From the NCBI RefSeq assembly GCF_003065425.1, contig NZ_CP026950.1, forward strand, positions 1 to 32,244: a stretch of 32,244 bases of DNA, written 5' to 3'. The position numbers and the translations under genes are program-made. This document shows, one piece after another, positions 4,055-21,703 of this stretch (the stretch's first letter is position 1; every line of letters starts with the position of its first letter). The notes under the pieces were generated by a model. That model did no database searches. It had not been told where the DNA came from and worked only from the letters and a program-made list of their open reading frames with translations. The stretch comes from Mycetocola zhujimingii. Lineage in GTDB: Bacteria > Actinomycetota > Actinomycetes > Actinomycetales > Microbacteriaceae.

Positions 4055-5695
4055 CTAGTCCCTTCCGTGGCCGTCACGCTCGCGTGGCGTGGCTGGCGTT
4101 TTGTGCTTACTCGGTTGCAGCTTGTTGGGCAGCGGTGAACCAGTGCCAGGCGCAGCAAGTCCGTCCGTCGCGCGGCGCAGGGCCTCGTTCTCGGAAGTCA
4201 TCACCCGGCCATCCGTCCGTGGCGTTGTCGCCGAGATCTCCGGCAGGCTCTGCTGTACCTGGGCGAACTTGCTGCGCATCATTGCCGTCATCTGTTCGGC
4301 TCGTCGCGCGTCGCCAGCTGCGGTGTGAGCGTCGAGGATCGCGACGCTGACCCGGCCGAGCTGGCGGAGCATGATGGCTTCGGCCATAGTTCCGCGTCCG
4401 CCGCTGGCGGCCTGCATGAGAATCATTGCGGCGTTCGCTGCAGAGCCGAGCCGCGGAGGTTTCGGCTTCGACTGGTGCGCCCTCAGGTGCGCGCTCCTGG
4501 CCAGCTCCCGGGAGGTCTCAGCGAGCGGTCCTGGCGTCGCCTCAACCCGCTGCGACCATGCCGCGAACACTCCAGAAGTCTCCCGGGCAACGTGAGCCCA
4601 TGTCGCCCGGTCAGTAACTGGGACGTCCCTCAGCTGCTTGCGGAGCTGCGCCACTTCGTCGGTGTACTGCTTCCACAGTTGCGGGTCCGGGGCGGTTTCC
4701 TCGCGGCCCGGCGCAACCGGTCGGTACTGCCATGGGTTCTTGCTGGTCGCGCGCCACTCGTCAGCCGCGGCCTGTGCGGTGGCGGGCGCGTCCGGCCATC
4801 CTTCCCGCAGTCGCGGCAGCGTCAGGTCACGAGCCAACCGGCCACCGCCGTACCAGATCGGTGAAGCGCCCTCGGCAGGTCGAAGAGCAACCGAATAGCC
4901 GGCCACAACGTCGTCGCGTCCAGCGGCGAAACGGGGGCGGATGAGTACCCCGCCGCGACGTAGCCGGCGGACGAACTCGCCCTCGTCAACCGATGCTGTC
5001 GCGGCAGCGCGGACGGTGCGTTCAAGCCGGTGGGCGTCGACCTCAACGGCGCCGGTGCGTTCTTGGCGTGCGCGCTCTGCGGGCTTGACTCCCCGCTCCC
5101 CCAACCCTGCTTCCCGACTCTCCAGTTGTTCCAGCCCGTAGTCGCGCTCAAGATCGCGGCAGACTTTCTGCGCCTTGGCGAAGTCGTTGTGGGTTGTCGC
5201 TTTGGTGCCATCCTCGCGCACCAGGGACACCGCGATGTGCACGTGGTCGTTGCCGTTCGTAGACAGACCGTGACGAACCGCAACCCACCGGCATGGTGCC
5301 TTCCCGCTGGCTTCGGTGAAGCCCATGCGGTCGGCAAAGTCCTGAGCGATCGCACCCCACTTCTCGTCACTCAGCTGGCCTTCTTTGGCCCGCAAGGAGA
5401 GTGAGCAATGCCATACGTTGGCATCTACCTGCGTCGTTGAAACGACACCGGTTTCCGGGTCGGTGATCCGTGCCGTCCGGGTCACGTTGACCCCGAGCCG
5501 TGTTCGCGGCTCATCGAGGTCATGAGCGATCTTGAGCGCTGTCGCCTTGTCTAGCTGATCGAATCCGTACATCGTCAGGATGGCCGAATCGCCCGCCACC
5601 AAGTGCTGCTCCTGGTGCTCGTTGTGTCGCCCGCCGCCAGCGAGGTAGACCATAAGACCGGTCATCTCGTTCCCTCGCGTGACGTTCGGCATCAT
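4055..5695 (-). CDS. Relaxase / mobilization nuclease (MOBP-like)
   Basis: This DNA-strand transferase nicks oriT and leads the single strand into the recipient. A candidate catalytic Tyr17 lies in the early LMVYLAGG segment. The WHCSLSL strand (95-101) and the metal-binding motif NDHVHIAV (149-156, His151 and His153) fit the relaxase/mobilization nuclease fold. The C-terminal half is Ala/Arg-rich and probably contacts partners. The 546-residue length is normal. The start overlaps the MobC stop by ATGA (an adjacent second Met is possible). It sits on the side of the oriT candidate that would be transferred last. Confidence 0.9.
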   Translation of the reverse strand: MMPNVTRGNEMTGLMVYLAGGGRHNEHQEQHLVAGDSAILTMYGFDQLDKATALKIAHDLDEPRTRLGVNVTRTARITDPETGVVSTTQVDANVWHCSLSLRAKEGQLSDEKWGAIAQDFADRMGFTEASGKAPCRWVAVRHGLSTNGNDHVHIAVSLVREDGTKATTHNDFAKAQKVCRDLERDYGLEQLESREAGLGERGVKPAERARQERTGAVEVDAHRLERTVRAAATASVDEGEFVRRLRRGGVLIRPRFAAGRDDVVAGYSVALRPAEGASPIWYGGGRLARDLTLPRLREGWPDAPATAQAAADEWRATSKNPWQYRPVAPGREETAPDPQLWKQYTDEVAQLRKQLRDVPVTDRATWAHVARETSGVFAAWSQRVEATPGPLAETSRELARSAHLRAHQSKPKPPRLGSAANAAMILMQAASGGRGTMAEAIMLRQLGRVSVAILDAHTAAGDARRAEQMTAMMRSKFAQVQQSLPEISATTPRTDGRVMTSENEALRRATDGLAAPGTGSPLPNKLQPSKHKTPATPRERDGHGRD

Positions 5696-6084
5696 GACTG
5701 ATCGAGCCTGTCTAATGCCGCACTGAGGCGTGGAACAAGTGCGCGGTACTCCTGAACGATCGCCTCCGCCTCGGCGGGAAATGTGCTCTCCGTGTTGGCG
5801 AACCGCGCGAGCTGGTTCACGTTGTTCGCAACGTTCGCCATTAGCCGGCGAACAGCGAACACCTCTGCGATAACTTCCTTGCGGTCGGTGTCGGTCTCAA
5901 TGTGTGCGTTCATCGCGGACTCGACCAACAGTCGCGGCACGGTCACGCGCGCAACAACCGCCCGTGCTCGCAACTGTGCGTCCTCTTCCGGGCTCACTCG
6001 GACGTGGTAACGACGTTCACGGGGCTCGTCTGAATTCGCGCGCCTCTGGCGGCCGAACAGACGACGCTCGTTCTTGTCAGTCAT
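5692..6084 (-). CDS. mobC: MobC-like relaxosome accessory protein
   Basis: This 130-residue protein has an arginine-rich N terminus, a ribbon-helix-helix-like stretch (YHVRVSPEEDAQLRARA) and the MobC signature region LLVESAMN with a downstream VANNVNQLAR segment (family pattern: hxNNhNQhAR). MobC proteins bind oriT and help open the nick site. I chose the ATG at 6084 because GGGGAG lies 5-6 bp upstream; the frame stays open to 6144, but that extension runs into the oriT-like hairpins. Its stop overlaps the relaxase start, so the two are co-expressed. Confidence 0.85.
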   Translation of the reverse strand: MTDKNERRLFGRQRRANSDEPRERRYHVRVSPEEDAQLRARAVVARVTVPRLLVESAMNAHIETDTDRKEVIAEVFAVRRLMANVANNVNQLARFANTESTFPAEAEAIVQEYRALVPRLSAALDRLDQS

Positions 6085-6309
6085 GTCTCCCCGCCTTCCC
6101 TGGCCCAGCGCAGCGACCCCGAGAATTCGGGGACCATACGTCAAGTATGCCGACTAAGACGCACAGCGTCTAGGAGAACAAGCGAGTTAGGGTGCCTAAC
6201 TCTATAGCTTGCTCCCGCCGAGGCAGCGCCTGCGGGATACGACAGCTCAGCTGGAGTTGAATCCTGAAAGGCTCTAGCCGCGAACGCGAACCGCTGTTAA
6301 TCTGAGGTC
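6085..6309. other. Candidate origin of transfer (oriT), hairpin-dense intergenic region
   Basis: This 225-bp divergent spacer next to mobC packs several inverted repeats. They are CCCCGA/TCGGGG (6117-6132), CATAC/GTATG (6135-6149), AGACGC/GCGTCT (6157-6171) and a nested pair, GAGTTAGG/CCTAACTC (6184-6202) inside CAAGC/GCTTG (6179-6211). At 6261-6266 there is ATCCTG, which resembles the nick core of IncP-type MOBP origins. oriT normally lies beside mobC/relaxase, so the place fits. The nick position and strand are inferred, not shown. Confidence 0.55.
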
Positions 6310-11364: not shown

Positions 11365-11946
11365 TCAACGCCGGCCTTCGTCGGCGCGCTCGAGGTCAAC
11401 GACGGCACGCATCCAGTAGGTGATCGCGTCGTAGTCCTGGAGGGTTTGTGCGCTGGTTAGCTGGATGCGTGCATCGGCAAGCTCAGCGGTGATATCGCCA
11501 CCGAACCCGGTGAAACCGGTTGCGGCGTCTGTTGCTGAGACCTTGCTACCGATCGGGGTGACTTCCCATCCAGGGGTGGCGCAAGGGCGCGCAGCACCCC
11601 GTTCAGCGGCCGGGGCGGCCGCCTTGGAGCCGCCGAGGTCTACTGCGATGTGGTCGGCGGCAATAACGCGTCGGTACTGTCGCCCTTCTCCGTCTTTCCG
11701 CCAGCTGGTGGTCCGCTCGTTTCCGACGACGATAATTGCTTGGCCGGGCTTAAGCTGCGCAGCTGCGGCCCCTAGCTCGAACTTGGCTTCGACGTGGTGT
11801 GTGGTGGGATTTTCGTCGGTCACCCACGCGCTCTGTCGATACTGCCGGGTTTGTTCGATCACGGTAAGCCTGGTTATTTCCACCTGTCCCGCGGCCTGCA
11901 CGATCGGGACACTGGCGAGACGTCCGGTGACTGTTCTTACGCTCAT
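11365..11946 (-). CDS. ssb: Single-stranded DNA-binding protein with C-terminal extension
   Basis: The N-terminal ~105 residues form an SSB OB-fold (RTVTGRLAS at the start, HHVEAKFELG and AIIVVGNERTTSW in the core). A further ~85 residues end in TLQDYDAITYWMRAVVDLERAD. The usual acidic tail of chromosomal SSB is missing. AAGGAGGAACC before ATG 11946 is a near-ideal ribosome site. It is paralogous to the 12012 gene. Plasmid SSBs protect the entering strand and can blunt SOS induction; its place in the proposed leading region fits. Confidence 0.85.
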   Translation of the reverse strand: MSVRTVTGRLASVPIVQAAGQVEITRLTVIEQTRQYRQSAWVTDENPTTHHVEAKFELGAAAAQLKPGQAIIVVGNERTTSWRKDGEGRQYRRVIAADHIAVDLGGSKAAAPAAERGAARPCATPGWEVTPIGSKVSATDAATGFTGFGGDITAELADARIQLTSAQTLQDYDAITYWMRAVVDLERADEGRR

Positions 11947-12011: not shown

Positions 12012-12374
12012 TTATTTCTCGTCGGTTTTCGCGGTGCGGTGCACCTGCGCGGTTGCCCGGTTGAGGTCGACGCCCACGTTCTCGGCTTCGATGACGCGTC
12101 CGTACTGCTTGGCACCCTCGTTCCCCCAGCTGCTGGTGCGTTCGCGGCCGACGACGATAACTGGGTCTCCCTTGTGGAGTGTCGCTGCGGCGTTCTCCCC
12201 CAGCTCAAACTTCGCTTCCACAAAATGCGTGGTGGCGTCGGGGTGTGCGTGCCATTTTCCCTGGCGGTACTCCCCCGTGTTCTCGATGACTCGGAGCTTG
12301 GTGATCTGGATGTTTCCGGCCTGCACTACTTCGGGGTCGACGGCCAGGTTTCCCGTGATGGTACGTGTTGACAT
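12012..12374 (-). CDS. ssb: Single-stranded DNA-binding protein (short paralogue)
   Basis: This 120-residue OB-fold SSB begins MSTRTITGNLAVDPEVV and contains THFVEAKFELGENAA and PVIVVGRERTSSW. It matches the first ~105 residues of the 11365-11946 protein and lacks both its extension and an acidic tail. It lies 28 bp behind the NrdH gene, so it is probably transcribed with it. Two unequal SSBs may serve different steps, such as strand coating and partner recruitment. Confidence 0.88.
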   Translation of the reverse strand: MSTRTITGNLAVDPEVVQAGNIQITKLRVIENTGEYRQGKWHAHPDATTHFVEAKFELGENAAATLHKGDPVIVVGRERTSSWGNEGAKQYGRVIEAENVGVDLNRATAQVHRTAKTDEK

Positions 12375-12402: not shown

Positions 12403-12654
12403 CTAGCTGGTCTTGTTGGCGGCGGCTAACGCGGCGATCTTGTCTGGACGCAACCCTGCCCAGTGGTTCTGATCGTCAACGACGACCACGGGGGCCTGCG
12501 AGTATCCGAGATCCTCGGTCACGTATTCCATCGCGCTCGGTGATTCGGTCAGGTCAACGACTCGGTATTCGATCCCAGCGTTGTCGAGGAATCGATAGGT
12601 TCCGGTGCACTGAACACAGTTGGGCTTGCTGTACACCGTCACGATTTCACTCAT
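12403..12654 (-). CDS. nrdH: NrdH-type glutaredoxin-like redoxin
   Basis: This 83-residue thioredoxin-fold protein has the redox motif CVQC (residues 13-16) and the family's cis-Pro segment SQAPVVVVDD. NrdH reduces class Ib ribonucleotide reductase in actinobacteria and so supports dNTP supply, which would suit copying of an incoming strand. No reductase subunit is in the window, so it would work with the host enzyme. GGAGGGATGAGGAC precedes the ATG, and structured element A lies 25 bp upstream. Confidence 0.88.
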   Translation of the reverse strand: MSEIVTVYSKPNCVQCTGTYRFLDNAGIEYRVVDLTESPSAMEYVTEDLGYSQAPVVVVDDQNHWAGLRPDKIAALAAANKTS

Positions 12655-12679
12655 GTCCTCATCCCTCCCCCACCAACAA

Positions 12680-12830
12680 TTTTTTTTGCCTTCTGGCGAG
12701 AAGATTCGATAGCGAGCGGGAGTGCCGGAGTGCGCAGAATCTCGGGCGAAATAAGCCCGGAGGGCGCGTCCGAGAATCTGGGAACGGAGGTACGGAGCGA
12801 GCTACGATCAGCTGCCAGAAAGGTGAAAAA
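12680..12830. repeat. Structured element A (upstream of nrdH)
   Basis: First of five long imperfect palindromes. Outer arms are CCTTCTGGC (12688-12697 region) and GCCAGAAAGG (12814-12823), with a T-run at the left edge and an A-run at the right. Inner arms pair CAGAATCTCGG with CCGAGAATCTG (two mismatches). The loop is of the GCCC-GGA-GGGC subtype, shared with copy C. The plus-strand 3' arm carries TACGAT (12803-12808). An inner GTGCC/GGTAC pairing needs a G-T wobble that exists only on the plus strand. The rest of the 12655-12940 spacer has a GCCGGC hairpin (12872-12889). Confidence 0.8.
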
Positions 12831-12920
12831 GGAGAAGCACTTCACAGCGCCGCGCAGCGGCTCTATCGGTTGCCGGCCTCCGTGCCGGCTTTCGGTGCTC
12901 TTCATCGCTCGCTCCGTCCG

Positions 12921-12945
12921 ATACTTATTTACGTATTTACTTAAT
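12921..12945. repeat. Single ParA-type iteron copy downstream of the par genes
   Basis: ACTTATTTACGT (12923-12934) repeats 12 bases found at 14002-14013 in the main iteron cluster, and is followed by ATTTACTTAA. It abuts the stop codon of the ParB-like gene (12941), so the par operon is flanked by related sites on both sides. Confidence 0.6.
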
Positions 12946-13303
12946 CGCTCATTTGCGCGACTACGGCCTTGCGGATGGTTTCTTGCAGCTCGGGGTTCGT
13001 GTTCAGCTCAGCAACGAGCGCCCGAATGACCAGGACGTGGGCGACTTTCGCCTTGCCCAGGTCCTCAGCCATTGCTGCGCAGTATGCCAGCAGAGCCCGG
13101 TAGTCCTGAGGAGCGAGGTCTGCACTCACGCGCACGGGCTTGGCCCGAGGCGCGGTGCGCGTAGCGGTGCGCACGGGCGGCGCAGCGGTCCCGGCGTCCG
13201 CGTCGGGTATGTCGGTGGCAGCCGCAGCCGCAGCTGGTCGTGTCGTCGTGGGCCTTTTGCTTAGCTTCGCGGCGCGCGCAGCGATTTCATCTTGCCGGCT
13301 CAT
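12941..13303 (-). CDS. ParA-partner DNA-binding protein (small ParB-type)
   Basis: This 120-residue protein has a long basic, Ala/Pro/Thr-rich N terminus (about 1-60). A C-terminal ~55-residue domain begins RVSADLAPQDYRALLAYCAAMAEDLG and resembles small ribbon-helix-helix-like partition partners. The start overlaps the parA stop by ATGA, the standard arrangement for a ParA and its centromere-binding partner. It probably binds the iterons around 13940-14024 and 12923. It is unrelated in sequence to the ParB-nuclease protein at 17545. Confidence 0.72.
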   Translation of the reverse strand: MSRQDEIAARAAKLSKRPTTTRPAAAAAATDIPDADAGTAAPPVRTATRTAPRAKPVRVSADLAPQDYRALLAYCAAMAEDLGKAKVAHVLVIRALVAELNTNPELQETIRKAVVAQMSD

Positions 13304-13917
13304 GCGGACTCCCCCAGCTGGTCGATTTCCCGTGCGGCGTCGGCATACTTGCCCAAGTCGGTGACGGGTGCGGCAAACGCCTGGGCGATTGGCTCGCGCC
13401 GTGGAATCGTTGTGGCGAGCACGGTGCGCCCGTCGTCAGCGATGAGCTGGCGGAACATGGGTGTCGAGTTCGCGTTGGTGACCGTGCGATTCAGGAGAAC
13501 GGCCACCTGCGGCGGAGTGTCTCGCAGTGACTCGACTTCATCGATCGCTGCCCATACATCGGGCAGCCGCTCGAATTCGAGCATCGTTGGGGCCATGGTG
13601 ACGACGATGGTGTCTGCGGCGCGAAGAGCCGAGTACACAATGCCTGCCTGCTCATCGAGTGGCGGGGTGTCGATAAGAACGACGTCGGTGTCCGGTGGCA
13701 CGATTCCCCGCAGTCGAGCGTGGAGATTTTTGACAGGCAGGGCAATGGTGGGTATTTCCCACTCCCCCTGTTCGCTCCATCGGAGCGCCGATCCCTGCGG
13801 GTCGGCATCGATGATGAGGACGTTCTTGCCCTCGGCCGCGTAGGCGTGCGCGAGGTAGGCGGTGCTGGTGGTCTTGGCAGAGCCACCCTTGAGATTGGTG
13901 ACGGTTATAACCTTCAT
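13300..13917 (-). CDS. parA: ParA-family partition ATPase
   Basis: This 205-residue Walker-type ATPase moves plasmid copies apart. Deviant Walker A KGGSAKTT (residues 10-17), Walker A' IIDADPQGSA and the switch region VLIDTPP are all present. It is the short (Ib) form without an N-terminal regulator domain, so the small partner protein probably represses the operon. AGGA precedes the ATG, and the long inverted repeat at 13941-13978 lies where the promoter must be. Confidence 0.93.
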   Translation of the reverse strand: MKVITVTNLKGGSAKTTSTAYLAHAYAAEGKNVLIIDADPQGSALRWSEQGEWEIPTIALPVKNLHARLRGIVPPDTDVVLIDTPPLDEQAGIVYSALRAADTIVVTMAPTMLEFERLPDVWAAIDEVESLRDTPPQVAVLLNRTVTNANSTPMFRQLIADDGRTVLATTIPRREPIAQAFAAPVTDLGKYADAAREIDQLGESA

Positions 13918-13930
13918 GAAAACATCCTAG

Positions 13931-14024
13931 CGTAAATGAGTATTCACGTAAACACTTATTCAAGTGTTTACGTGAATAAGTGTTTACGTATCAACGTAAC
14001 TACTTATTTACGTGTTTACGTGAA
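13931..14024. repeat. Centromere/operator-like iterons upstream of parA
   Basis: An AT-rich cluster is built on GTTTACGTGAA. It contains a perfect 17-bp inverted repeat (13941-13957 and 13962-13978, 4-nt loop), further direct copies at 13982-13992 and 14014-14024, and ACTTATTTACGT at 14002-14013. It occupies the spacer before parA and runs into the 3' end of the 14008-14283 gene, whose last codons are iteron sequence. Best reading: partition site plus autoregulatory operator; an origin role is less likely. Confidence 0.8.
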
Positions 14025-14283
14025 GTAGTGCGCGGTCACGGTCGAGCTGTGCTCTGAGCGCGGTCTGCTCCGCCTCGAGCTGGAGTCGCTGCTCTTTCGC
14101 CAGAGCGGCGTTGATTCCGTGGCCACGGTTGAAATCAGTGGCCCAGCCGTCGAGCATGCGTTGCCTCCTGTGAAGCTTCGCGATGATCGCGTCAACTCGT
14201 GTGGCCACGGGCATGTCTCCATAGCGAGCGGCGACTGCTTGCTGCGCCGCTTCGGCGCGTGCCTGGGCTTGGGGATCGGTCAT
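14008..14283 (-). CDS. Small helical protein (91 residues)
   Basis: It is Ala/Gln/Arg-rich, begins MTDPQAQARAEAAQQAV and ends in a coiled-coil-like segment (KEQRLQLEAEQTALRAQLDRDRALL). No catalytic motif. It lies after the terminator hairpins of the DUF3846-like gene and its last codons fall within the parA iterons, so transcription through it would read into the par region. No good ribosome site. Function unknown. Confidence 0.6.
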   Translation of the reverse strand: MTDPQAQARAEAAQQAVAARYGDMPVATRVDAIIAKLHRRQRMLDGWATDFNRGHGINAALAKEQRLQLEAEQTALRAQLDRDRALLHVNT

Positions 14284-14325
14284 GGTTTTTCTCGCTTTGC
14301 GCTTGGGTGACCGGGATGGGGGAGT

Positions 14326-14372
14326 GTGAGGGGATCGCCCCTCACGGCTGGCCAGCGGTCAGCTGGCCAGCC
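14326..14372. terminator. Tandem hairpins after the DUF3846-like gene
   Basis: GTGAGGGG/CCCCTCAC (14326-14345, 4-nt loop) is followed directly by an 11-bp perfect repeat GGCTGGCCAGC/GCTGGCCAGCC (14346-14372). They lie 9 bp downstream of the stop at 14382 on the minus strand. The same two-hairpin arrangement follows dprA. Confidence 0.8.
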
Positions 14373-14381
14373 GTGGCGGCG

Positions 14382-14810
14382 TTAGAGGCCCGCGATGATT
14401 GCCAGGGCTGCGGGATGCGCGGCGAGCGTTTCCGTCAACTGGTCGAGCACGACGGGGGAGGGCTTCTCACTTGCTGCGGCGGTGATGCGCTGCACCTGCT
14501 CTTCGGTGAGGCTGATCGTGTCACCGGTCTCATCATTCGAGCCGAGTATCACCGCGTTACCGAAGAGGGCCGCTCTGACGCCGAGAACGTGGGCAAGGAC
14601 GGTCAACGGCAGGTTGAACGAGGACCCGTTGATTGCGCCCTCATCGTCTACGAAGAAGTCAATGCCGCCGTCTACCGAAACGACGTCGAACGTTCGGCAG
14701 CCCACCGCGTTCTGGATGGAAGTGACGGTGTCTCTGCCATCGATGTGGATGTGCCCCAGCGTTCTCGTGGTGATCCGCACCGCTCGTAACTGGTCTGTGG
14801 TTGTAGTCAT
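14382..14810 (-). CDS. DUF3846-like protein
   Basis: This 142-residue protein contains FDVVSVDGGIDFFVDDEGAI and, later, AVILGSNDETGDTISLTEEQVQ, a pattern I associate with DUF3846 proteins of actinobacterial phages and plasmids. The role is unknown. ATG 14810 is chosen because GGGAGAGAGAACC precedes it; the open frame to 14990 only runs through structured element B. Transcription appears monocistronic, bounded by element B upstream and tandem hairpins downstream. Confidence 0.65.
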   Translation of the reverse strand: MTTTTDQLRAVRITTRTLGHIHIDGRDTVTSIQNAVGCRTFDVVSVDGGIDFFVDDEGAINGSSFNLPLTVLAHVLGVRAALFGNAVILGSNDETGDTISLTEEQVQRITAAASEKPSPVVLDQLTETLAAHPAALAIIAGL

Positions 14811-14837
14811 TAGGTTCTCTCTCCCTGTGAACAACTG

Positions 14838-14993
14838 TTTTTTGTGCCTGTCTGGCGAGAGAAATCGATAGCGACCGGGAGTGCCGGAGTGCCCCGAATT
14901 TCGGGCGAAATAAGGGAGCCTGCGACCGCGTCCGAAAATCTGGGAACGCAGGCACGGAAGGGAACTACGATGACCGGCCAGACAGGTCAAAAA
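14838..14993. repeat. Structured element B (upstream of the DUF3846-like gene)
   Basis: Outer arms CCTGTCTGGC (14847-14856) and GCCAGACAGG (14977-14986) are perfect, flanked by T6 on the left and A5 on the right. The inner stem pairs CCGAATTTCGG with CCGAAAATCTGG, with two mismatches. The loop is of the GGGAGCCTGCGACC subtype shared with E and, nearly, D. TACGAT lies at 14966-14971 in the 3' arm. To the right are a GCCGC/GCGGC hairpin and the terminator of dprA, filling the 14811-15104 spacer. Confidence 0.85.
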
Positions 14994-15046
14994 GCTCGAA
15001 AACCAGCGCCGCGCAGCGGCTCCGACGGGTTACCTGGTGGGGGAGT

Positions 15047-15097
15047 GTGAGGGGGCGCCGGCCCCCTCACGGTTGGCCAGCGGTGAGCTGACCAACC
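15047..15097. terminator. Tandem hairpins after dprA
   Basis: GTGAGGGGG/CCCCCTCAC (15047-15070, 6-nt loop) is followed by GGTTGGCCAGC/GCTGACCAACC (15071-15097, one mismatch). They lie just after the dprA stop at 15105 on the minus strand and match the arrangement at 14326. Confidence 0.78.
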
Positions 15098-15104
15098 GCC
15101 TCGC

Positions 15105-16004
15105 CTATAGGGCTTCGACTTCCTCCACTGTGGTGACGAGGGTTGCCCCGTATTCACGGATGAGGCGGTGGCACCCGGCGCTGGCAGCGCTGGTCACTGG
15201 GCCCGGCATTGCACCAACCGGGGTGCCGATCGCGATAGCGTGTCCCGCGACATTTAAGGAGCCACTACGCCAGCCCGCTTCAACGATAAGAACCCGGTTG
15301 GCCATAGCGGCGAGGATCCGGTTTCGCTGCAAAAACCTCCATTTTGTGGGAGAGGTCATTGGTGCCAGCTCGCTGACCAGTACGCCTGCTTCGGCAACCC
15401 GTGCGAACAGAGCGGCGTGCCCGGCGGGGTAGGCACGGTCCAGCCCTCCGGCGAGGATCACGACCGCGTTTCCTTCGCTGGCGAGTGTCGCTCTGGTCGC
15501 TGCGCCACCGATTCCGTAGCCGCCGCAGGAGAGGATGGTGTGACCTCTTCTGGACAGCCCTGAGGCGAGTTCGACACTTTGAAATTCGCCGTAGCCGGTG
15601 GCGGCGCGGCTTCCGAGCACGGCCGTCGTGTTGGTGTCGGTTCCCAGCAACTCCTTCTTGCCCAGAACCCAGAGGCCGTGAGGTCGGTGCACGCCGAGCA
15701 CGTCCAGACGGGTATCCCATTCGGGGTCTTCGGGTGTGATGAAAGTGGAGCCGAGTTTCGCGGCGATGGCGTTTGCCGCACGGAATTCACCTTCCGAGAT
15801 CCGGGGCCGCATGCGCTCTCGCAGCGGGGCGGCATCGATGCCGTCAAAGTTGGTGTGTGAGCCGGTAGCGATTTGGGTGAACGCTTCCACGGCTCCGAGC
15901 CGCTGGATGAGCGCACCGGCTAGACCGTCTCCGGGTTCGCAGAATTGTGCCCATGCTTGGCGTGCTTCGCGGTCATCGGTGACGATTCGGGTAACGGTGG
16001 TCAT
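15105..16004 (-). CDS. dprA: DprA/Smf-like DNA-processing protein
   Basis: This 299-residue Rossmann-type protein binds single-stranded DNA and loads RecA. Family segments are TAVLGSRAATGYG, ILSCGGYGIGGAA, VVILAGGLDRAYPAGH, FLQRNRILAAMANRVLIVEAG and the GTPVGAMPGPV block. The N-terminal ~100 residues resemble the SAM-like cap; the C-terminal winged helix of longer DprAs is absent. ATG 16004 has AGGAGAGAG upstream; the frame to 16142 is only element C. A plasmid copy beside SSBs and ArdC suggests care of the incoming strand, or action on or against defences. Confidence 0.85.
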   Translation of the reverse strand: MTTVTRIVTDDREARQAWAQFCEPGDGLAGALIQRLGAVEAFTQIATGSHTNFDGIDAAPLRERMRPRISEGEFRAANAIAAKLGSTFITPEDPEWDTRLDVLGVHRPHGLWVLGKKELLGTDTNTTAVLGSRAATGYGEFQSVELASGLSRRGHTILSCGGYGIGGAATRATLASEGNAVVILAGGLDRAYPAGHAALFARVAEAGVLVSELAPMTSPTKWRFLQRNRILAAMANRVLIVEAGWRSGSLNVAGHAIAIGTPVGAMPGPVTSAASAGCHRLIREYGATLVTTVEEVEAL

Positions 16005-16027
16005 AGTCTCTCTCCTCTGAACAACTG

Positions 16028-16180
16028 TTTTTTGTGCCTGTCTGGCGAGAGAAATCGATAGCGACCGGGAGTGCCGGAGTGCCCAGAATCTCGGGCGAAA
16101 TAAGCCCGGAGGGCGCGTCCGAGATTCTGGGAACGGAGGCACGGGAGGGAGCTACGATGACCGGCCAGATAGGTCAAAAA
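16028..16180. repeat. Structured element C (upstream of dprA)
   Basis: Outer arms are CCTGTCTGGC (16037-16046) and GCCAGATAGG (16164-16173), with one G-T pair that is a wobble only on the plus strand. The inner stem is a perfect 13-bp repeat (16082-16094 and 16119-16131). The GCCC-GGA-GGGC loop subtype matches A. TACGAT lies at 16153-16158. The adjacent GCTGC/GCGGC hairpin again needs a plus-strand wobble. The ArdC terminator completes the 16005-16301 spacer. Confidence 0.86.
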
Positions 16181-16234
16181 GCTCGAAAAACAGCGCTGCG
16201 CAGCGGCTCCGACGGGTTGTCCTGGTGGGGGAGT

Positions 16235-16291
16235 GTGAGGGGGCGCCGGCCCCCTCACGGCGCTTGGGAGCGCCCGGCCTGGGACGCTCCC
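16235..16291. terminator. Hairpins after ardC
   Basis: GTGAGGGGG/CCCCCTCAC (16235-16258) is followed by GGGAGCG/CGCTCCC (16266-16291) with a 12-nt loop. They lie 11 bp downstream of the ArdC stop at 16302 on the minus strand. Confidence 0.75.
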
Positions 16292-16301
16292 TGCGCTGCG
16301 G

Positions 16302-17192
16302 TCAGGCGGGTTCAGGGTCGTCGGTGTCTTCCGGGTCGAGGATCCCCGCGAGCTGGTGCGCGGTGCGGAGCACGCGGGCTGCGGTGGATTTGATCAGTTC
16401 GGTGTTGCCTTCTGCCCATCCGGCGATGTAGCCGACGCTGTAGGCACTGGTGTCGAACCCGACCAGTCCGGCAACGACGTAGGCGACGGATTCAGCTTCG
16501 GTTTCCATCAGGCCGCGGTGCTCGGCGTATTCGGCCATGTCGTCGGTGTGGCCTAGGAGCACGTGGGCGGCTTCGTGAATGAGGGTCTTCGCGGTGTGCT
16601 CGGGGCTGAGGTTGGCATCAATGACGATGGCCATTTCTTCGGGGTTGGCGTAGCCGTTCTTTCGACCCGGGAGGGGTCGGCGTTCGACTGTCCATCCTTC
16701 GGCGGTGAGGTAGGTCGAGAGTGTGTCGATAACGCCGAAATCGTCGGCCCCGGTCAGCTGGACCGCGATCGCGCTGGGGTCTTCGGCTCCGTCAATGAGG
16801 TCGGTCTGACCAATGTCGAAGACAGACAGGACCGGGAACCGGGCGACGCTCTTTTCTACCTCGTCGCCGTTTTCGTCTTCCTCGGTGATTTTCTTGGTCG
16901 AGTACCCAAAGATGCGGATGCCCGCCTCACCTTTGCGGACCTGTCGGCCGAGTGCCTGCCATTTCCGGAACCCGGCGACGTGGGACGCGTCCGGCTTCTG
17001 GGCGAGGATTAGCAGAACGTTGTTCAGGGAGTAGGCGTGGAACGCCTGTGCGAAATCGAGAAACGCGGTCCAGCGGTCGGAGTTGCGCAGCTGCTCGACT
17101 TGCTCGCTGATCGAGTTGTGCAGCGCTTCGGCCTGAGCCTTCTTTTCCTCAAGAGTCTTGCCCGGTCGGCGGGTCTTGGTGCTGGTGCTCAT
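16302..17192 (-). CDS. ardC: ArdC-like antirestriction protein (ssDNA-binding domain plus metallopeptidase)
   Basis: This 296-residue protein has an ArdC-type N-terminal domain (WTAFLDFAQAFHAYSLNNVLLI, then GFRKWQALGRQVRKGEAGIRIF) and a C-terminal zinc-peptidase-like domain. The latter carries HEAAH at 206-210 and downstream glutamates (ETEAES, 230-235) as the third ligand. ArdC proteins protect entering plasmid DNA from restriction. ATG 17192 is preferred over an upstream Met at 17216, because the GGAGGGAGAGAGGAAAG ribosome site lies between them. The gene is isolated by element D and its own terminator. Confidence 0.9.
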   Translation of the reverse strand: MSTSTKTRRPGKTLEEKKAQAEALHNSISEQVEQLRNSDRWTAFLDFAQAFHAYSLNNVLLILAQKPDASHVAGFRKWQALGRQVRKGEAGIRIFGYSTKKITEEDENGDEVEKSVARFPVLSVFDIGQTDLIDGAEDPSAIAVQLTGADDFGVIDTLSTYLTAEGWTVERRPLPGRKNGYANPEEMAIVIDANLSPEHTAKTLIHEAAHVLLGHTDDMAEYAEHRGLMETEAESVAYVVAGLVGFDTSAYSVGYIAGWAEGNTELIKSTAARVLRTAHQLAGILDPEDTDDPEPA

Positions 17193-17217
17193 CGGTTCTT
17201 TCCTCTCTCCCTCCACG

Positions 17218-17411
17218 TTTTTTGCCGTGAAGGCACGTAGTGCCGGCAGGACGGGAGGGTGGAGTGCAACCTATGGCTGCGGGGGAAAGAATTTCGGCGC
17301 GAAATAAGGGAGCTTGCGACCGCGTGCCGAAATTGTTGGCGGAGCTGGCGGCGCAGCCGCTTGCGCGGAATCCGGACGTCCGTACGCTGCCGCCAGGCTT
17401 CACGGCAAAAA
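17218..17411. repeat. Structured element D (upstream of ardC), divergent long copy
   Basis: Outer arms TTTTTGCCGTGAAG (17219-17232) and CTTCACGGCAAAAA (17398-17411) are a perfect 14-bp pair, although the sequence differs from the CCTGTCTGGC of copies B, C and E; both arms changed together. The inner stem pairs AATTTCGGC with GCCGAAATT. The loop is the GGGAGCTTGCGACC subtype. About 40 extra bases lie in the 3' arm. TACGCT (17383-17388) stands where the others have TACGAT. The rest of the 17193-17544 spacer holds a CCGCGCAGCGG hairpin, a GCCGGC hairpin and the ParB-gene terminator. Confidence 0.8.
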
Positions 17412-17507
17412 TGGCTGTTTCTTGGGTTGGGACAGTGCCGCGCAGCGGCGCCGATTGTTCCTGGTGGAGTGGGAGGTGCCGGCCTCCGTGCCGGTACCGG
17501 GGGAGTA

Positions 17508-17538
17508 CCCGGCGTGACAGGATCTCTGCCACGCCGGG
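17508..17538. terminator. Hairpin after the ParB-nuclease-type gene
   Basis: CCCGGCGTG/CACGCCGGG (17508-17516 and 17530-17538), a perfect 9-bp stem with a 13-nt loop, lies 6 bp beyond the stop at 17545 on the minus strand. Confidence 0.75.
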
Positions 17539-17544
17539 CGGGTG

Positions 17545-18963
17545 TTACTCGTCCGTGTCGTCACCGGCCTCGTCGGTGGTTTCGTCGTCCACGGCTTCGC
17601 TGGTTGGTTCGGTTTCCTTGGGCGTGGTCACGATTTTTTCCACGTCGCTGAGGCCGTATCCCCATGCGGCCAGCTGCGTGAAGTAGCGGGCGTTGATCGG
17701 GTTCGGGTAGCGCCATGTTTCTTTGCTGGTGCTGTCCTCGATGCCGCCGAGAACCGTGGCGAGAGCGACGTGCTGGGCTTTTGCGGGGTGCTGCTCGATG
17801 AAAGCGGCGAGCTTGTCTCCTTCGGAGTAGCGGCCTCGCTCGATCCCGAGCAGGGTGTGGGCCAGATCGTTGCCGTGCCCGATTGCTGTTCCTACCTCGC
17901 GGTGATGGGTGGTGAGGCCCTGTGCGATCACCGTTGCGGTGTCCTTCGGCAGGGTCTTGCGGCTGAGAAATTCAGCCAACCATTCCCGGCGAACAACCTC
18001 AGCGGATGCCCATGCTTTGTTGTTCGCGATCAGGGTTCGGCGTTCCGCTTTCTGATCCTCGGTCATTGGTCCGCTGGTGGAGCCGCTGCCGTTGTTCCTG
18101 CGGAATCCTGCGGCTTTCGGGTCTTTGAGGAAGTAACGCACGTCGGCTTCATCACTGGTGTAATAAGTCCGTACGAACGCGGCGCGGCCCTCTGCCTCGG
18201 CAATGTCCTCGACGGTGACCGGCTCGCCGTCCTTCGTGACCAGTTCGCGGATGCTGGTGTAGTCGGTCTCGTAGTAGCCCCGGTCCCGGGTGAGGATTTC
18301 GTAACCGCGCTCGATCAGCGCGGCAGTGGCTTCCGCTGCGATCTTGTCAAGGCGGCGCTCATCCCGTGCTCGCTGGGCGACGTGGGGGAACGAGGTCGGA
18401 TCGTTCTCGGCCGCGTCGATCAACGATTTCACTGTGTCATCGTCGTCCTCGAACTCGATCAGGACGGCGGCCTGATCGAGAGTGATCGAGTGGCTGACAA
18501 TCGCGGATGCGGCTGTGCCGTTCTCCGCGACAGCGATTCCGGCTTTCACGGTCGCGGCCTTGGTCCCGGTGCGCTTGGCGATCACTGCCGGGGTGAGGCC
18601 CTCGAACGCGAGCTGCTGGAACGCCGCTACCCGGTCGGCATCGGTGACGGCCTCGCGGTGGTCGTTCTCAACCATCTGCTGCACGATCCGATCAACGGTC
18701 GTCTCGTCGGCTTCGACAATGTAAGCCGGGATGGTGCTCAGTCCGGCTTCTCGGGCTGCGAGGGTGCGGCGCTGTCCGGCTCGAACGATCACATTTCCCT
18801 GCTCGTCGCGTCGGGCGAGAATCGGTGTCAGGACACCGTTCTGCTTGATGCTGGCGACGAACTCCCGTGGCAGGGCAGCTTCGGTTCGCACGTTCGCTTC
18901 CACAACGATCAGGTTGGGGTCGATGTGCTCGATGGTGCCCATGCGGGCGGTTGTGTTAGTCAT
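17545..18963 (-). CDS. ParB/RepB/Spo0J-type nuclease-domain protein (leading-region ParB-like)
   Basis: This 472-residue protein has a ParB N-terminal domain (IEHIDPNLIVVEANVRTE ... VIVRAGQRRTLAAREAG, GQRR at 63-66; ENDHRE at 99-104) and a helix-turn-helix (LTPAVIAKRTGTKAATVKAGI, about 123-143). A long C-terminal region ends in an acidic tail. It is far from parA and much larger than the partition partner, so it resembles the ParB-like proteins of conjugative leading regions rather than a centromere binder. GGAGAGAG precedes the ATG, with element E 23 bp upstream. Confidence 0.85.
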   Translation of the reverse strand: MTNTTARMGTIEHIDPNLIVVEANVRTEAALPREFVASIKQNGVLTPILARRDEQGNVIVRAGQRRTLAAREAGLSTIPAYIVEADETTVDRIVQQMVENDHREAVTDADRVAAFQQLAFEGLTPAVIAKRTGTKAATVKAGIAVAENGTAASAIVSHSITLDQAAVLIEFEDDDDTVKSLIDAAENDPTSFPHVAQRARDERRLDKIAAEATAALIERGYEILTRDRGYYETDYTSIRELVTKDGEPVTVEDIAEAEGRAAFVRTYYTSDEADVRYFLKDPKAAGFRRNNGSGSTSGPMTEDQKAERRTLIANNKAWASAEVVRREWLAEFLSRKTLPKDTATVIAQGLTTHHREVGTAIGHGNDLAHTLLGIERGRYSEGDKLAAFIEQHPAKAQHVALATVLGGIEDSTSKETWRYPNPINARYFTQLAAWGYGLSDVEKIVTTPKETEPTSEAVDDETTDEAGDDTDE

Positions 18964-18986
18964 TGGGTTCTCTCTCCATCAACTGA

Positions 18987-19140
18987 TTTTTTTGCCTGTC
19001 TGGCAAGAGAATCGATTGAGAGCGGGAGTGCCGGAGTGCACAGAATTTCGGGCGAAATAAGGGAGCCTGCGACCGCGTCCGAAAATCTGGGCACGTAGGC
19101 ACGGAGCGAACTACGATGACCGGCCAGACAGACGAAAAAA
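18987..19140. repeat. Structured element E (upstream of the ParB-like gene)
   Basis: Outer arms CTGTCTGGC (18996-19004) and GCCAGACAG (19123-19131) extend outward through a G-C pair, a plus-strand T-G wobble and six T-A pairs (T7 at 18987-18993, A6 at 19135-19140). The inner stem is CAGAATTTCGG with CCGAAAATCTG. Loop subtype as in B. TACGAT is at 19112-19117. The adjacent hairpin is CCGCC-GTA-GGCGG, a compensated version of the GCCGC/GCGGC hairpin of the other copies. Confidence 0.85.
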
Positions 19141-19197
19141 TGCTCTTAGAGTCATCGCACCGCCGTAGGCGGTTCCCCTGGTTCTTGGTGGAGGAGT

Positions 19198-19240
19198 GTG
19201 AGGGGGAAAATCCCCTTCACGTGAGCTGGCACCAGCTCAC
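19198..19240. terminator. Hairpin pair in the spacer before the small membrane-protein gene
   Basis: GTGAGGGG pairs with CCCCTTCAC (19198-19220, one bulge), and GTGAGCTGG pairs with CCAGCTCAC (19221-19240, perfect 9-bp stem, 2-nt loop). They match the tandem hairpins that end other genes of the block, but here they separate element E from a plus-strand gene. A TATATT (19251-19256) follows and could be a -10 for that gene. Confidence 0.65.
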
Positions 19241-19654: not shown

Positions 19655-21703
19655 TCAGGCCACCTGTTGATGCTCGATCGTTTTAGGGCGGCTGAGCGCG
19701 CCGGCCAGAATCAGGTCCCACGCTTCGCCGTGGTGTCCGCGACCGTTGCGGCGCGGGTAGGCGGGGAAGTCGGGTCGGTCGTTTTGAGCGAACAGCGGCA
19801 CGCCGGTGGCACTGCGGCGGCCGCGTCGTTTCTTGTTTCGTTTGGAGAGCCAGGCGAGGTCGGCTCGCCACCATGCCCAGCGTGCGCGTTCGGCGTCGTA
19901 GCGGGCTGCGCGTGCGGCCAGGTACCCGTCGACGCCGAGTTGTGCGGCTGCGGCGTCGCGGGTATCCGCGGCGGTGCGAGTCCATCCGTCTGGGTGTCGG
20001 TCGACCAGGCCGGCGCTGTGCATTCGTGAGAGGGATTTCCTGATTCGGGATGCGCTCAAATTTGTTGCCTTGGTCAGGGACTCCACTGTGAGCGTGTTTT
20101 CTTCCTGCAAGTAGCTGTAAGTAAGTCCTGCTTTCCGTCCCAGGCTATGCGGGGCGGAAAAAACATCGTGTGTAAGATCTGCGAGGCGGGAGCTTAAACG
20201 ATTGATCCACCAGTCGCGTTGATCAGCAGCCGGGCTTTCGCTTGGGTGCGTTACCGCTTGTAGCAACTTCTGGTCTGTCTGTGCTGTGGAGAACTTTTTA
20301 GAGAGCCGGTACTTCGCTCCGTGGGCGCCTTCGGCGGCGTCGACCAGGACGATCCATGCGCTCTCCGGGTCGTCGGTGAGCGGTTCTCTGAGGGCGTGGA
20401 GGGCGAGACGGCAGGCTTCGTGTGAGTAGCCAGTGACTTGGGAAAGACGGCGCTGGTCGGCTTCGACGGTGAGTGAGGCGGCTTGCGCGATGAACAGGCA
20501 CAGGGCATCCAAAACGGCGCGGTGCGAGAATCGCCCGCGTACGCCTTTCTGGGCGCTCCCAGGGCCGCTCAGGCCCCAGCGTCCGGGCATGGCGTCTGCG
20601 GCCGTCTGGACGCGGGCTATGGCCTCGGATGCGGCGATCGCGCGCGCGTTGAACTCAGTATTGGAGCCGTCACCGCTGATCGGGTTGGCGGCGACAAACT
20701 CGACGGCACGCCGCCAGGCGTGCTCGAGCGCGCGTCGGGATTCCGCCGCGCTGCGCGGCACCCGCGGCTGCGTGGGGGTAATCCTGCGCGTGCGTGAGTG
20801 TTCGAGGGCGGGGGAGACGTGCAGCAGAGCGAGGACGTCCGCGAATCGCCAGCGTGCGCGTGCGCAGCCGGCGAGTACGGTCGCCTGGGTGTGCGACGTG
20901 TCGTAAGCGGGCGGCGCGTCGAGAAGATTGAGGATCCGATCAGTGAGCGGTCGTTTCGAACCGGTCAGGTGCGGGTACCCACCCTCATCGACGCTCACAC
21001 CGTGGATCGGCGTGACCGGCGCGAGCTTGATCGTCGCACCGGTATCGATCAAGAAAGCGTGGAGCGATTGCAGCTGCTCCGCCGTTACGCTGTGCGCGGT
21101 GAGCGTGGCAACGGAGCCGATCGGTTCCGAGTACCCGGACTGCCGGTGTGGGGCGCCAGGGGGGCGCACCGAGCCGGTGGCCGGGTTTCTCAGCGGCGTA
21201 ATATCCAGCGACGGCAGGAGCTGCGCAGCGAGGTGTCCGATGGTCCCGACCACGGCAGCGTCGGTGCCGTCGTGGAGGGAGAGCCAGACGTGTCGGCCGC
21301 CTGTGGGACCGGACCTGGTGACCAGGTGTTCAATGTTGAGCTCGTCCAGCCAGTGGCTGAGTTTGGCAGCGTCGTAGATAGCGTTGCCGTGGCCGGCGTC
21401 GAGGTCGAAAGCGATGTAGTGGAAGTATCCGTGAACGTCGGTGAGCGGCATCGCCCATGGTGTTGTCGGCGCGTCCGCTGAAAGCGGGATCGTCGCTGTG
21501 TAGTCGTTCAGATAACCGTCCGGTCCGAGCTGATCAGCGAGCCGAACGCGCCCGCGAGGGCTCAGCTGGCACGTCAAATCCCAGGCTGTCCACTCATCGG
21601 GGGACACGCCCGACGCTAATTCTGTGCCAGAAGTAGCGTCAAAACGGTATACATCGGTTACTATGGGGTCATCCTTTCGGGGATGCCAAAGGCTCCGGTT
21701 CAT
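19655..21703 (-). CDS. Primase-like plasmid replication protein (Rep)
   Basis: This 682-residue protein begins with a primase-polymerase-like domain. HYIAFDLDAGHG (95-106) supplies a DxD-type metal site, TRSGPTGGRHVWLSL (129-143) resembles the sxH motif, and SVRPPGAPHR (178-187) is a block common in plasmid and phage primases. The middle is Ala/Arg-rich, and a C-terminal helix-turn-helix (LTVESLTKATNLSASRIRKSLSRM) could bind the origin. It is the only replication-initiator candidate in the window. The ribosome site before ATG 21703 is poor. An imperfect hairpin region upstream (21717-21798) may control it. Confidence 0.8.
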   Translation of the reverse strand: MNRSLWHPRKDDPIVTDVYRFDATSGTELASGVSPDEWTAWDLTCQLSPRGRVRLADQLGPDGYLNDYTATIPLSADAPTTPWAMPLTDVHGYFHYIAFDLDAGHGNAIYDAAKLSHWLDELNIEHLVTRSGPTGGRHVWLSLHDGTDAAVVGTIGHLAAQLLPSLDITPLRNPATGSVRPPGAPHRQSGYSEPIGSVATLTAHSVTAEQLQSLHAFLIDTGATIKLAPVTPIHGVSVDEGGYPHLTGSKRPLTDRILNLLDAPPAYDTSHTQATVLAGCARARWRFADVLALLHVSPALEHSRTRRITPTQPRVPRSAAESRRALEHAWRRAVEFVAANPISGDGSNTEFNARAIAASEAIARVQTAADAMPGRWGLSGPGSAQKGVRGRFSHRAVLDALCLFIAQAASLTVEADQRRLSQVTGYSHEACRLALHALREPLTDDPESAWIVLVDAAEGAHGAKYRLSKKFSTAQTDQKLLQAVTHPSESPAADQRDWWINRLSSRLADLTHDVFSAPHSLGRKAGLTYSYLQEENTLTVESLTKATNLSASRIRKSLSRMHSAGLVDRHPDGWTRTAADTRDAAAAQLGVDGYLAARAARYDAERARWAWWRADLAWLSKRNKKRRGRRSATGVPLFAQNDRPDFPAYPRRNGRGHHGEAWDLILAGALSRPKTIEHQQVA

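Follow-up and report, generated by a model that had tools for sequence, protein, structure and literature searches.

The 32,244-bp stretch of DNA from Mycetocola zhujimingii analysed here (the window) is a contig in full, the second of two in its genome, and carries, within positions 12680-19140, five long imperfect palindromes, named elements A to E, each located just before a minus-strand gene. We consider it likely that these elements act as single-stranded-DNA promoters in the manner of Frpo of plasmid F, to which they are unrelated in sequence; their expression from the single strand is what we infer from the comparative evidence laid out below. The elements pass most of the comparative tests of Frpo function, and by sequence they are not Frpo homologues. 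The five elements are:

12680-12830, element A, folding on the plus strand, before nrdH-ssb (minus strand), with the -10-like hexamer TACGAT at 12803-12808
14838-14993, element B, folding on the plus strand, before the DUF3846 gene, with TACGAT at 14966-14971
16028-16180, element C, folding on the plus strand, before dprA, with TACGAT at 16153-16158
17218-17411, element D, of a second type, folding on the plus strand, before ardC, with TTGCGC at 17361-17366, a spacer of 16 nt and TACGCT at 17383-17388
18987-19140, element E, folding on the plus strand, before the ParB-like gene, with TACGAT at 19112-19117

Elements A, B, C and E form one family with 82-90% identity: when B was used as a query against its own genome, it matched C (E-value 1e-54, 90%), E (1e-53, 90%) and A (3e-36, 82%); further hits were a 44-nt stretch at the D apex (93%) and a chance match of 18 nt. 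Element D has arms of its own, and only its apex is common with the other four. A previous sequence-only reading of the window had located the five elements, with TACGAT in the 3' arms of A, B, C and E, TACGCT in that of D, and a perfect 14-bp stem in D (TTTTTGCCGTGAAG), all of which is borne out by the sequence and by the self-search with B. The same reading treated the five as one kind, which holds for A, B, C and E but not for D, a different structural type with its own relatives; it rightly placed the elements closely upstream of their genes, at 22-27 bp, where the measured distance to the start codon is 23-27 nt; and the duplex sequence TATCGA(T) that it gave for the minus strand opposite the -10 hexamer is present on the gene-sense strand of A, B and C (TATCGAT), but E reads AATCGAT. 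The outer stem of A, CCTTCTGGC/GCCAGAAAGG, contains a one-base bulge. In a comparison of single elements with shuffled sequences, which covered B and D, the plus-strand DNA fold of B beat 200 of 200 shuffles (z -3.57), and the fold of D reached a z of -3.20 with one shuffle equally good.

The hairpin is conserved among homologues. A covariance model built from 16 copies (R1) detected the A/B/C/E type in 69 of 398 Microbacteriaceae genomes, belonging to 30 of 85 genera, and in 64 chosen sources it gave 136 matches at E <=1e-3 and 132 at E <=2e-7. Five of the 136 were set aside (the mirror strand 18988-19136, the partial D apex 17290-17334, the contig-end partial L048:15952, L073:179 and L099:6587), and the resulting alignment A4 has 132 rows, 129 of them distinct; the counts of -10 hexamers, energies, mismatches and duplex promoters were made on 128 distinct rows, L048:15952 being omitted. 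Across 33 pairs in the 129 distinct copies (4156 cells), 91.4% of the cells hold standard pairs, compared with 72.5% after column shuffling and 34-39% when the pairing was slid, and changes on both sides occur in 31 of the 33 pairs, in 664 cells compared with 196 (shuffled) and 80-113 (slid), where A4 was fitted to R1, which favours the model's own pairs, and the shuffled and slid controls are not phylogeny-aware. When the first 16 sequences were aligned by MAFFT without structure, 39 pairs were found, 20 of which had changed on both sides. The arms thus change together as had been claimed for the window, in a pair alignment of homologues as well, and the covariation lies far above both controls.

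The mismatches mildly favour the plus strand as the folding strand: in 58 representatives, the plus strand holds 33 A.C mismatches against 93 in shuffled alignments, a stronger depletion than that of G.T (127 against 169), the alignment being fitted to a model that accepts G.T. An internal loop of the form CGNAG/CGNAG is GNA-like on both sides in 88 of 128 copies, which fits a sheared G.A zipper, a motif known for single-stranded DNA. As an alternative, the elements could be RNA leaders, in which transcription would start upstream and the fold of the minus-strand RNA would control translation, decay or termination. The minus-strand RNA of B does fold well, beating all shuffles (z -4.74), and each element adjoins the ribosome-binding region; however, the G.T pairs tolerated on the DNA become A.C mismatches on the RNA strand and the CGNAG/CGNAG loop becomes pyrimidine mismatches, and a leader leaves unexplained the fixed TANNNT in the complement, its loss on the sense strand and the relaxase polarity described below. 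Neither the window nor any of four related loci has an Rfam match at the gathering score, and with the strand evidence mildly in favour of plus-strand DNA, a riboswitch or leader was set aside as extremely unlikely.

A candidate origin of transfer (oriT) and the polarity of the relaxase both point to the plus strand as the strand that enters in the window, in agreement with the sequence-only reading. The features concerned are:

4055-5695, minus strand, relaxase gene (MobA/VirD2-like, Pfam Relaxase)
5692-6144, minus strand, MobC/NikA-like relaxosome gene
6184-6214, plus strand, candidate oriT, an inverted repeat GAGTTAGG-GTG-CCTAACTC followed by TATAGCTTGCTC, upstream of mobC, the orientation of which would put the nick on the plus strand

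Known oriTs built in this way have the nick 3' of the repeat, on the strand that is cleaved; by this rule, the orientation of the repeat would make the plus strand the entering one, and elements A to E would enter about 6.5-13 kb behind the nick of the candidate oriT. The repeat recurs in L113, L116 (there as TATGCTTGCTAC), L095 and L096 with arms that have changed yet remain complementary, on the strand opposite the relaxase, and L095 has a second oriT-like match on the other strand. A search for the repeat with perfect arms, made in the window and at 11 other loci, found it in the window and at 4 of the others, and gave no match at the remaining 7 of the 12. The inverted repeat plus GCTTGC was preferred over an ATCCTG motif near 6262 that had been noticed by eye.

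On other contigs, the direction of the relaxase gene served as a proxy for the entering strand. The relaxase search was made in 36 of the 69 element-bearing genomes, and 39 contigs entered the sample, 36 of them with a relaxase. On all 29 contigs that encode a Pfam Relaxase (23 contigs, 69 elements) or a full TrwC (6 contigs, 14 elements), all 83 elements fold on the strand opposite that of the relaxase gene, one of the 29 (G330:C1, 849 kb) not being of plasmid size. Two further elements, the fifth of G330:C1 and the second of G041:C8, follow the same rule and are uncounted. Contigs with no relaxase of the two families fall outside the count, e.g. G313:C70, G313:C57, G141:C18, G078:C10, G193, G011:C4, G139, G134:C18, G134:C14, G090:C29, G221 and G145 (the last two being outside the relaxase search), and G318:C1, whose TrwC is 2 Mb away, was left unscored.

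The folded plus strand carries a promoter-like hexamer that the duplex avoids. TANNNT is found within the last 40 nt, i.e. in the 3' arm, of 127 of 128 copies (by alignment column in 123, plus four with TATCGT when read with one extra base). Its inner letters vary (TACGAT in 67 copies, TACGGT in 22, TAGGTT in 22, and others) and co-vary with the 5' arm, while its first T and A are unpaired and form, with the two or three template letters across from them, an internal loop that keeps the pair on either side in 95 of 128 copies. The spacer to an upstream box is 17 nt in 82 copies and 16 nt in 34, and the box, GGCACG in 43 and GGAACG in 30, is GGNACG-like and weak in most copies. On the gene-sense duplex strand of the A/B/C/E type, to which this test applied, TANNNT occurs opposite the hexamer in 0 of 128 copies (24% in shuffles), and in the last 60 nt plus a 22-nt leader in 6 of 128 against 55.6 expected; TTGNNN-N16-19-TANNNT promoters in the same stretch number 0 against 3.1 expected. 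The duplex therefore lacks what the hairpin supplies, and the earlier suggestion of a promoter that exists only when folded is supported.

The same counts bear on the idea that each palindrome is a repressor site, or a cruciform, over an ordinary double-strand promoter, as for the repeats called EGeRS on plasmid pLS20. Such a role would suit the position of the elements directly before genes, and the occurrence of both directions on some contigs that have a short TrwC-like relaxase or none would then be unremarkable; pLS20 moreover has repeated regulatory sequences before its establishment genes, according to PMC8708921. Yet the gene-sense duplex avoids TANNNT and holds no TTG-TANNNT promoter in 128 copies, and the transferred strand, which on pLS20 is the non-template strand, is by relaxase polarity the template on all 29 contigs with Pfam Relaxase or full TrwC. 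We regard this explanation as very unlikely.

Most copies of the element lie closely before a gene. With all matches taken with 300 nt of flank, the first ATG or GTG that opens a frame of at least 60 aa stands at a distance of 15-45 nt beyond the 5' end for 93 of 133 matches, and beyond the other end for 20 of 134. The 123 distinct downstream proteins include ParB_N (23), DprA (11), glutaredoxin (11), DUF3846 (11), ArdcN (10), SSB (8) and DUF3560 (3), where the longest frame was taken for each element and may differ from the real gene, and six elements had no 60-aa frame within 130 nt. These families are mutually unrelated; what they have in common is the element. The nearness of the elements to oriT varies between plasmids. 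On contigs with the short TrwC-like form, elements on opposite strands are found close together (L093:9246-9697, L094:9380-9828, L074:9289-11022 and L077:8088-11364), some of them before ardC-like or ParB-like genes and one before a gene of about 103-134 aa.

Single-strand initiation sites (sso/ssi), hairpins that recruit RNA polymerase, primase or a primosome for synthesis of the second strand, would be expected to lie on the same strand and to have the same folded form, with the position of genes being secondary. According to PMC4595007 and PMC7736820, Gram-positive sso and Frpo of F are folded promoters that make primers, and in the ssoA type the folded single strand is read as a promoter by the host RNA polymerase (PMC4595007). 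The apex module described below, some copies of which are not directly before a gene, would also suit such sites. On the other hand, priming needs neither several copies per plasmid nor a position mostly 15-45 nt before a start codon, nor does it need the choice of establishment genes. Priming as the sole role is rather unlikely, and it does not exclude a promoter: Frpo does both.

Taken together, the proposal of the sequence-only reading that the elements are single-stranded-DNA promoters of the entering plus strand is supported by the covariation, by the relaxase polarity with the candidate oriT and by a TANNNT that is present only in the fold. Several observations weigh against it. The GGNACG-like box is a poor match to the -35 consensus TTGACN; one of the two pairs flanking the -10 loop is missing in 33 of 128 copies, and the element of L087 has GAGGTT in place of TANNNT. 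On seven contigs with the short TrwC-like form, the strand rule fits only 11 of 20 elements, such that over all 36 scored contigs it is followed by 94 of 103 elements and 30 of 36 contigs; the grouping by relaxase form behind the count of 29 of 29 was chosen after the counts were seen, and the contigs are related to one another. Elements in both directions are present on at least nine contigs that have no Pfam Relaxase or TrwC nearby (G155:C34, G205:C2, G396:C2, G141:C18, G078:C10, G318:C1, G011:C4, G139:C8 and G193:C3), and in some plasmids a long distance separates the elements from the relaxase (in NZ_CP016283, about 89 kb around the circle). Finally, the DNA folding energy is lower on the plus strand in 128 of 128 copies but also in 279 of 290 shuffled sequences; it is therefore no evidence for the strand, and was dropped as such.

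If the elements are promoters of this kind, the entering plus strand would fold into a long hairpin, the 3' arm of which would act as the non-template strand with the -10-like TANNNT. RNA polymerase with the housekeeping sigma factor would bind the hairpin like a duplex, melting it at the ready-made internal loop and initiating within the outer stem, about 7 nt below the -10; it would then leave the AT-rich base of the hairpin and continue on the single-stranded template, so that the leader would measure about 40 nt. Synthesis of the second strand would pair the template arm with its perfect complement, whereby the -10 would lose its register, CTACGAT of the arm giving way to CTATCGAT or CAATCGAT in the duplex, and the promoter would be silenced. 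The products, SSB, ArdC, DprA, the ParB-like protein and NrdH, would protect and establish the plasmid, and the same transcripts may also prime the second strand.

Element D looks like a second make of the same design. As a query, it matched 83 plasmid records (in 50, the match covers 80% or more of its length) from organisms that include Dietzia and Gordonia as well as one Corynebacterium. Among 13 aligned copies, CTTGC stands at the -35 place in 13, and the -10 has A as its second and T as its last letter in 13 and T as its first in 9; ArdC and ParB genes are among the neighbours of this type. Many elements of the family have a 54-nt apex module, GGGTCGTGGAATACCG...GGATATGCCGCGAAAGCCC (the type II apex), which recurs in 258 plasmid records, 106 of them from Burkholderia and 67 from Pseudomonas, with Serratia, Escherichia, Geobacillus and Alicyclobacillus also present. 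Sites of the module are:

L060:10690-10760
L106:4990-5070 (pWW0)
L125:3001-3072
L126:3001-3070
L109:3001-3054

Four Pseudomonadota copies of the apex were folded, and each lies within a longer hairpin; in B. ambifaria and S. plymuthica, the module stands about 90 nt before a DNA methyltransferase gene. The module may serve for priming, or be bound by a protein on single strands. The Pseudomonadota hairpins were rejected as promoters of the same make: their folds are longer, no consistent TANNNT was seen by eye, and a second covariance model, R2, gave no match.

The A/B/C/E type seems to be mainly one of Microbacteriaceae, as R2 matched only 7 of 396 genomes of the order, all in this family, and 2 of 296 of the class, both again Microbacteriaceae; the misses outside the family are soft, because the genome search scores only a few best candidates per genome. 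Outside the family, R2 matches named plasmids, namely an Arthrobacter plasmid, which is a training sequence, and pTZC1 of Cutibacterium acnes (E 2e-7); W01-W04 gave training sequences to the models. Plasmid records with related elements number 46 (Clavibacter, Curtobacterium, Cryobacterium, Arthrobacter, Herbiconiux and others), and in many of them the match is confined to the 50-nt apex. A phage origin was dismissed, element E having no match among 50,697 phage records.

The genes of the window that accompany the elements are:

12012-12374, minus strand, ssb (SSB), below nrdH
12403-12654, minus strand, nrdH (glutaredoxin-like)
13300-13917, minus strand, gene for a ParA-like ATPase, beyond the DUF3846 gene
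14382-14810, minus strand, DUF3846 gene
15105-16004, minus strand, dprA (DNA_processg_A)
16302-17192, minus strand, ardC-like anti-restriction gene
17545-18963, minus strand, ParB-like gene

Two neighbouring SSB-like genes lie behind A, the one at 12012-12374 and another at 11365-11946 that is below the Pfam cut-off. Directly upstream of the ParA-like gene, positions 13931-14030 hold a cluster of GTGTTTACGT/ACGTAAACAC-type repeats that resembles a partition site or operator. Past the 3' arms of B and C lie two copies of the same 24-nt GC-rich palindrome, GTGAGGGGGCGCCGGCCCCCTCAC, at 15047-15070 and 16235-16258, which are perhaps terminators of the preceding gene. The 682-aa protein encoded at 19655-21703, with a weak winged-helix match and a very weak match to AEP primase (E 0.02), is a candidate replication protein.

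In F, Frpo1 and Frpo2 are stem-loops with -10 and -35 sequences, whose loss ends early expression, as stated in PMC9849209. Samuel et al. found Frpo homologues in 6,006 of 21,907 elements by BLAST and used a consensus to look for more (PMC11541004); the main text of their paper does not use the words Actinobacteria or Actinomycet. A 2026 survey applied their sequences to PLSDB (PMC12826799). We found no actinobacterial single-stranded-DNA promoter in the literature searched, where most subscription papers were beyond reach. In that literature, such promoters are shown for the enteric plasmids F and ColIb-P9; for the Gram-positive plasmid pLS20, its authors argue against them by polarity, because the transferred strand is the non-template strand there (PMC8708921).

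We lean slightly towards a broader view, in which obligate single-stranded-DNA promoters would have evolved in Actinomycetota independently of F-like plasmids, in two or more structural types and with a duplex-off switch built in, namely the mismatched, usually one-base-longer template stretch opposite the -10. These would occur like a regulon in up to six copies per contig, with both MOBP and MOBF relaxases, and one interchangeable apex would be shared with plasmids of Pseudomonadota and Bacillota, so that the class, or a tied priming function, may be far wider. If this is true, expression before duplex formation arose more than once, as a covarying actinobacterial class unrelated in sequence and of the right polarity. 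The shift of register between the folded and the duplex -10 would be a simple and directly testable switch, and the models allow establishment genes, unknown ones included, to be found on such plasmids.

Among the known systems, the elements most resemble Frpo (ssiD) of F and ssi2/ssi3 of ColIb-P9 in being hairpins of the entering strand, with -10 and -35 in the case of F (PMC9849209), in having more than one copy in the leading region and in lying directly before establishment genes. The F repeats, taken as Frpo2 and Frpo1 from their position and their 89.6% identity to each other, include one that ends 21 nt before ssb, and the leading genes of F run in the same direction as the tra genes, which is the same polarity as in the window. 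In F, conversion to duplex reportedly silences the promoters, and the window elements would be silenced in the same way. Direct homology was not found: the F repeat has no significant similarity to positions 12601-19200 of the window (best blastn E 0.42), and R2 found no match in the F leading region. Unlike the F repeat of at least 522 nt, the window elements are about 150 nt long, with a different apex, a poor -35 and a host of a different phylum. Compared by description only, they are also like the ssoA-type origins of Gram-positive rolling-circle plasmids, in which a folded single strand acts as a promoter; the ssoA-type origins and sso1 of ICEBs1 are known primer makers, unlike the gene promoters proposed here, and to our knowledge they are not placed before a set of genes. 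Like the EGeRS of the pLS20 family in Bacillus, the elements are repeats before the establishment genes of a Gram-positive conjugative plasmid, but where PMC8708921 gives the transferred strand as the non-template strand, the polarity on all 29 contigs of our main group is the opposite.

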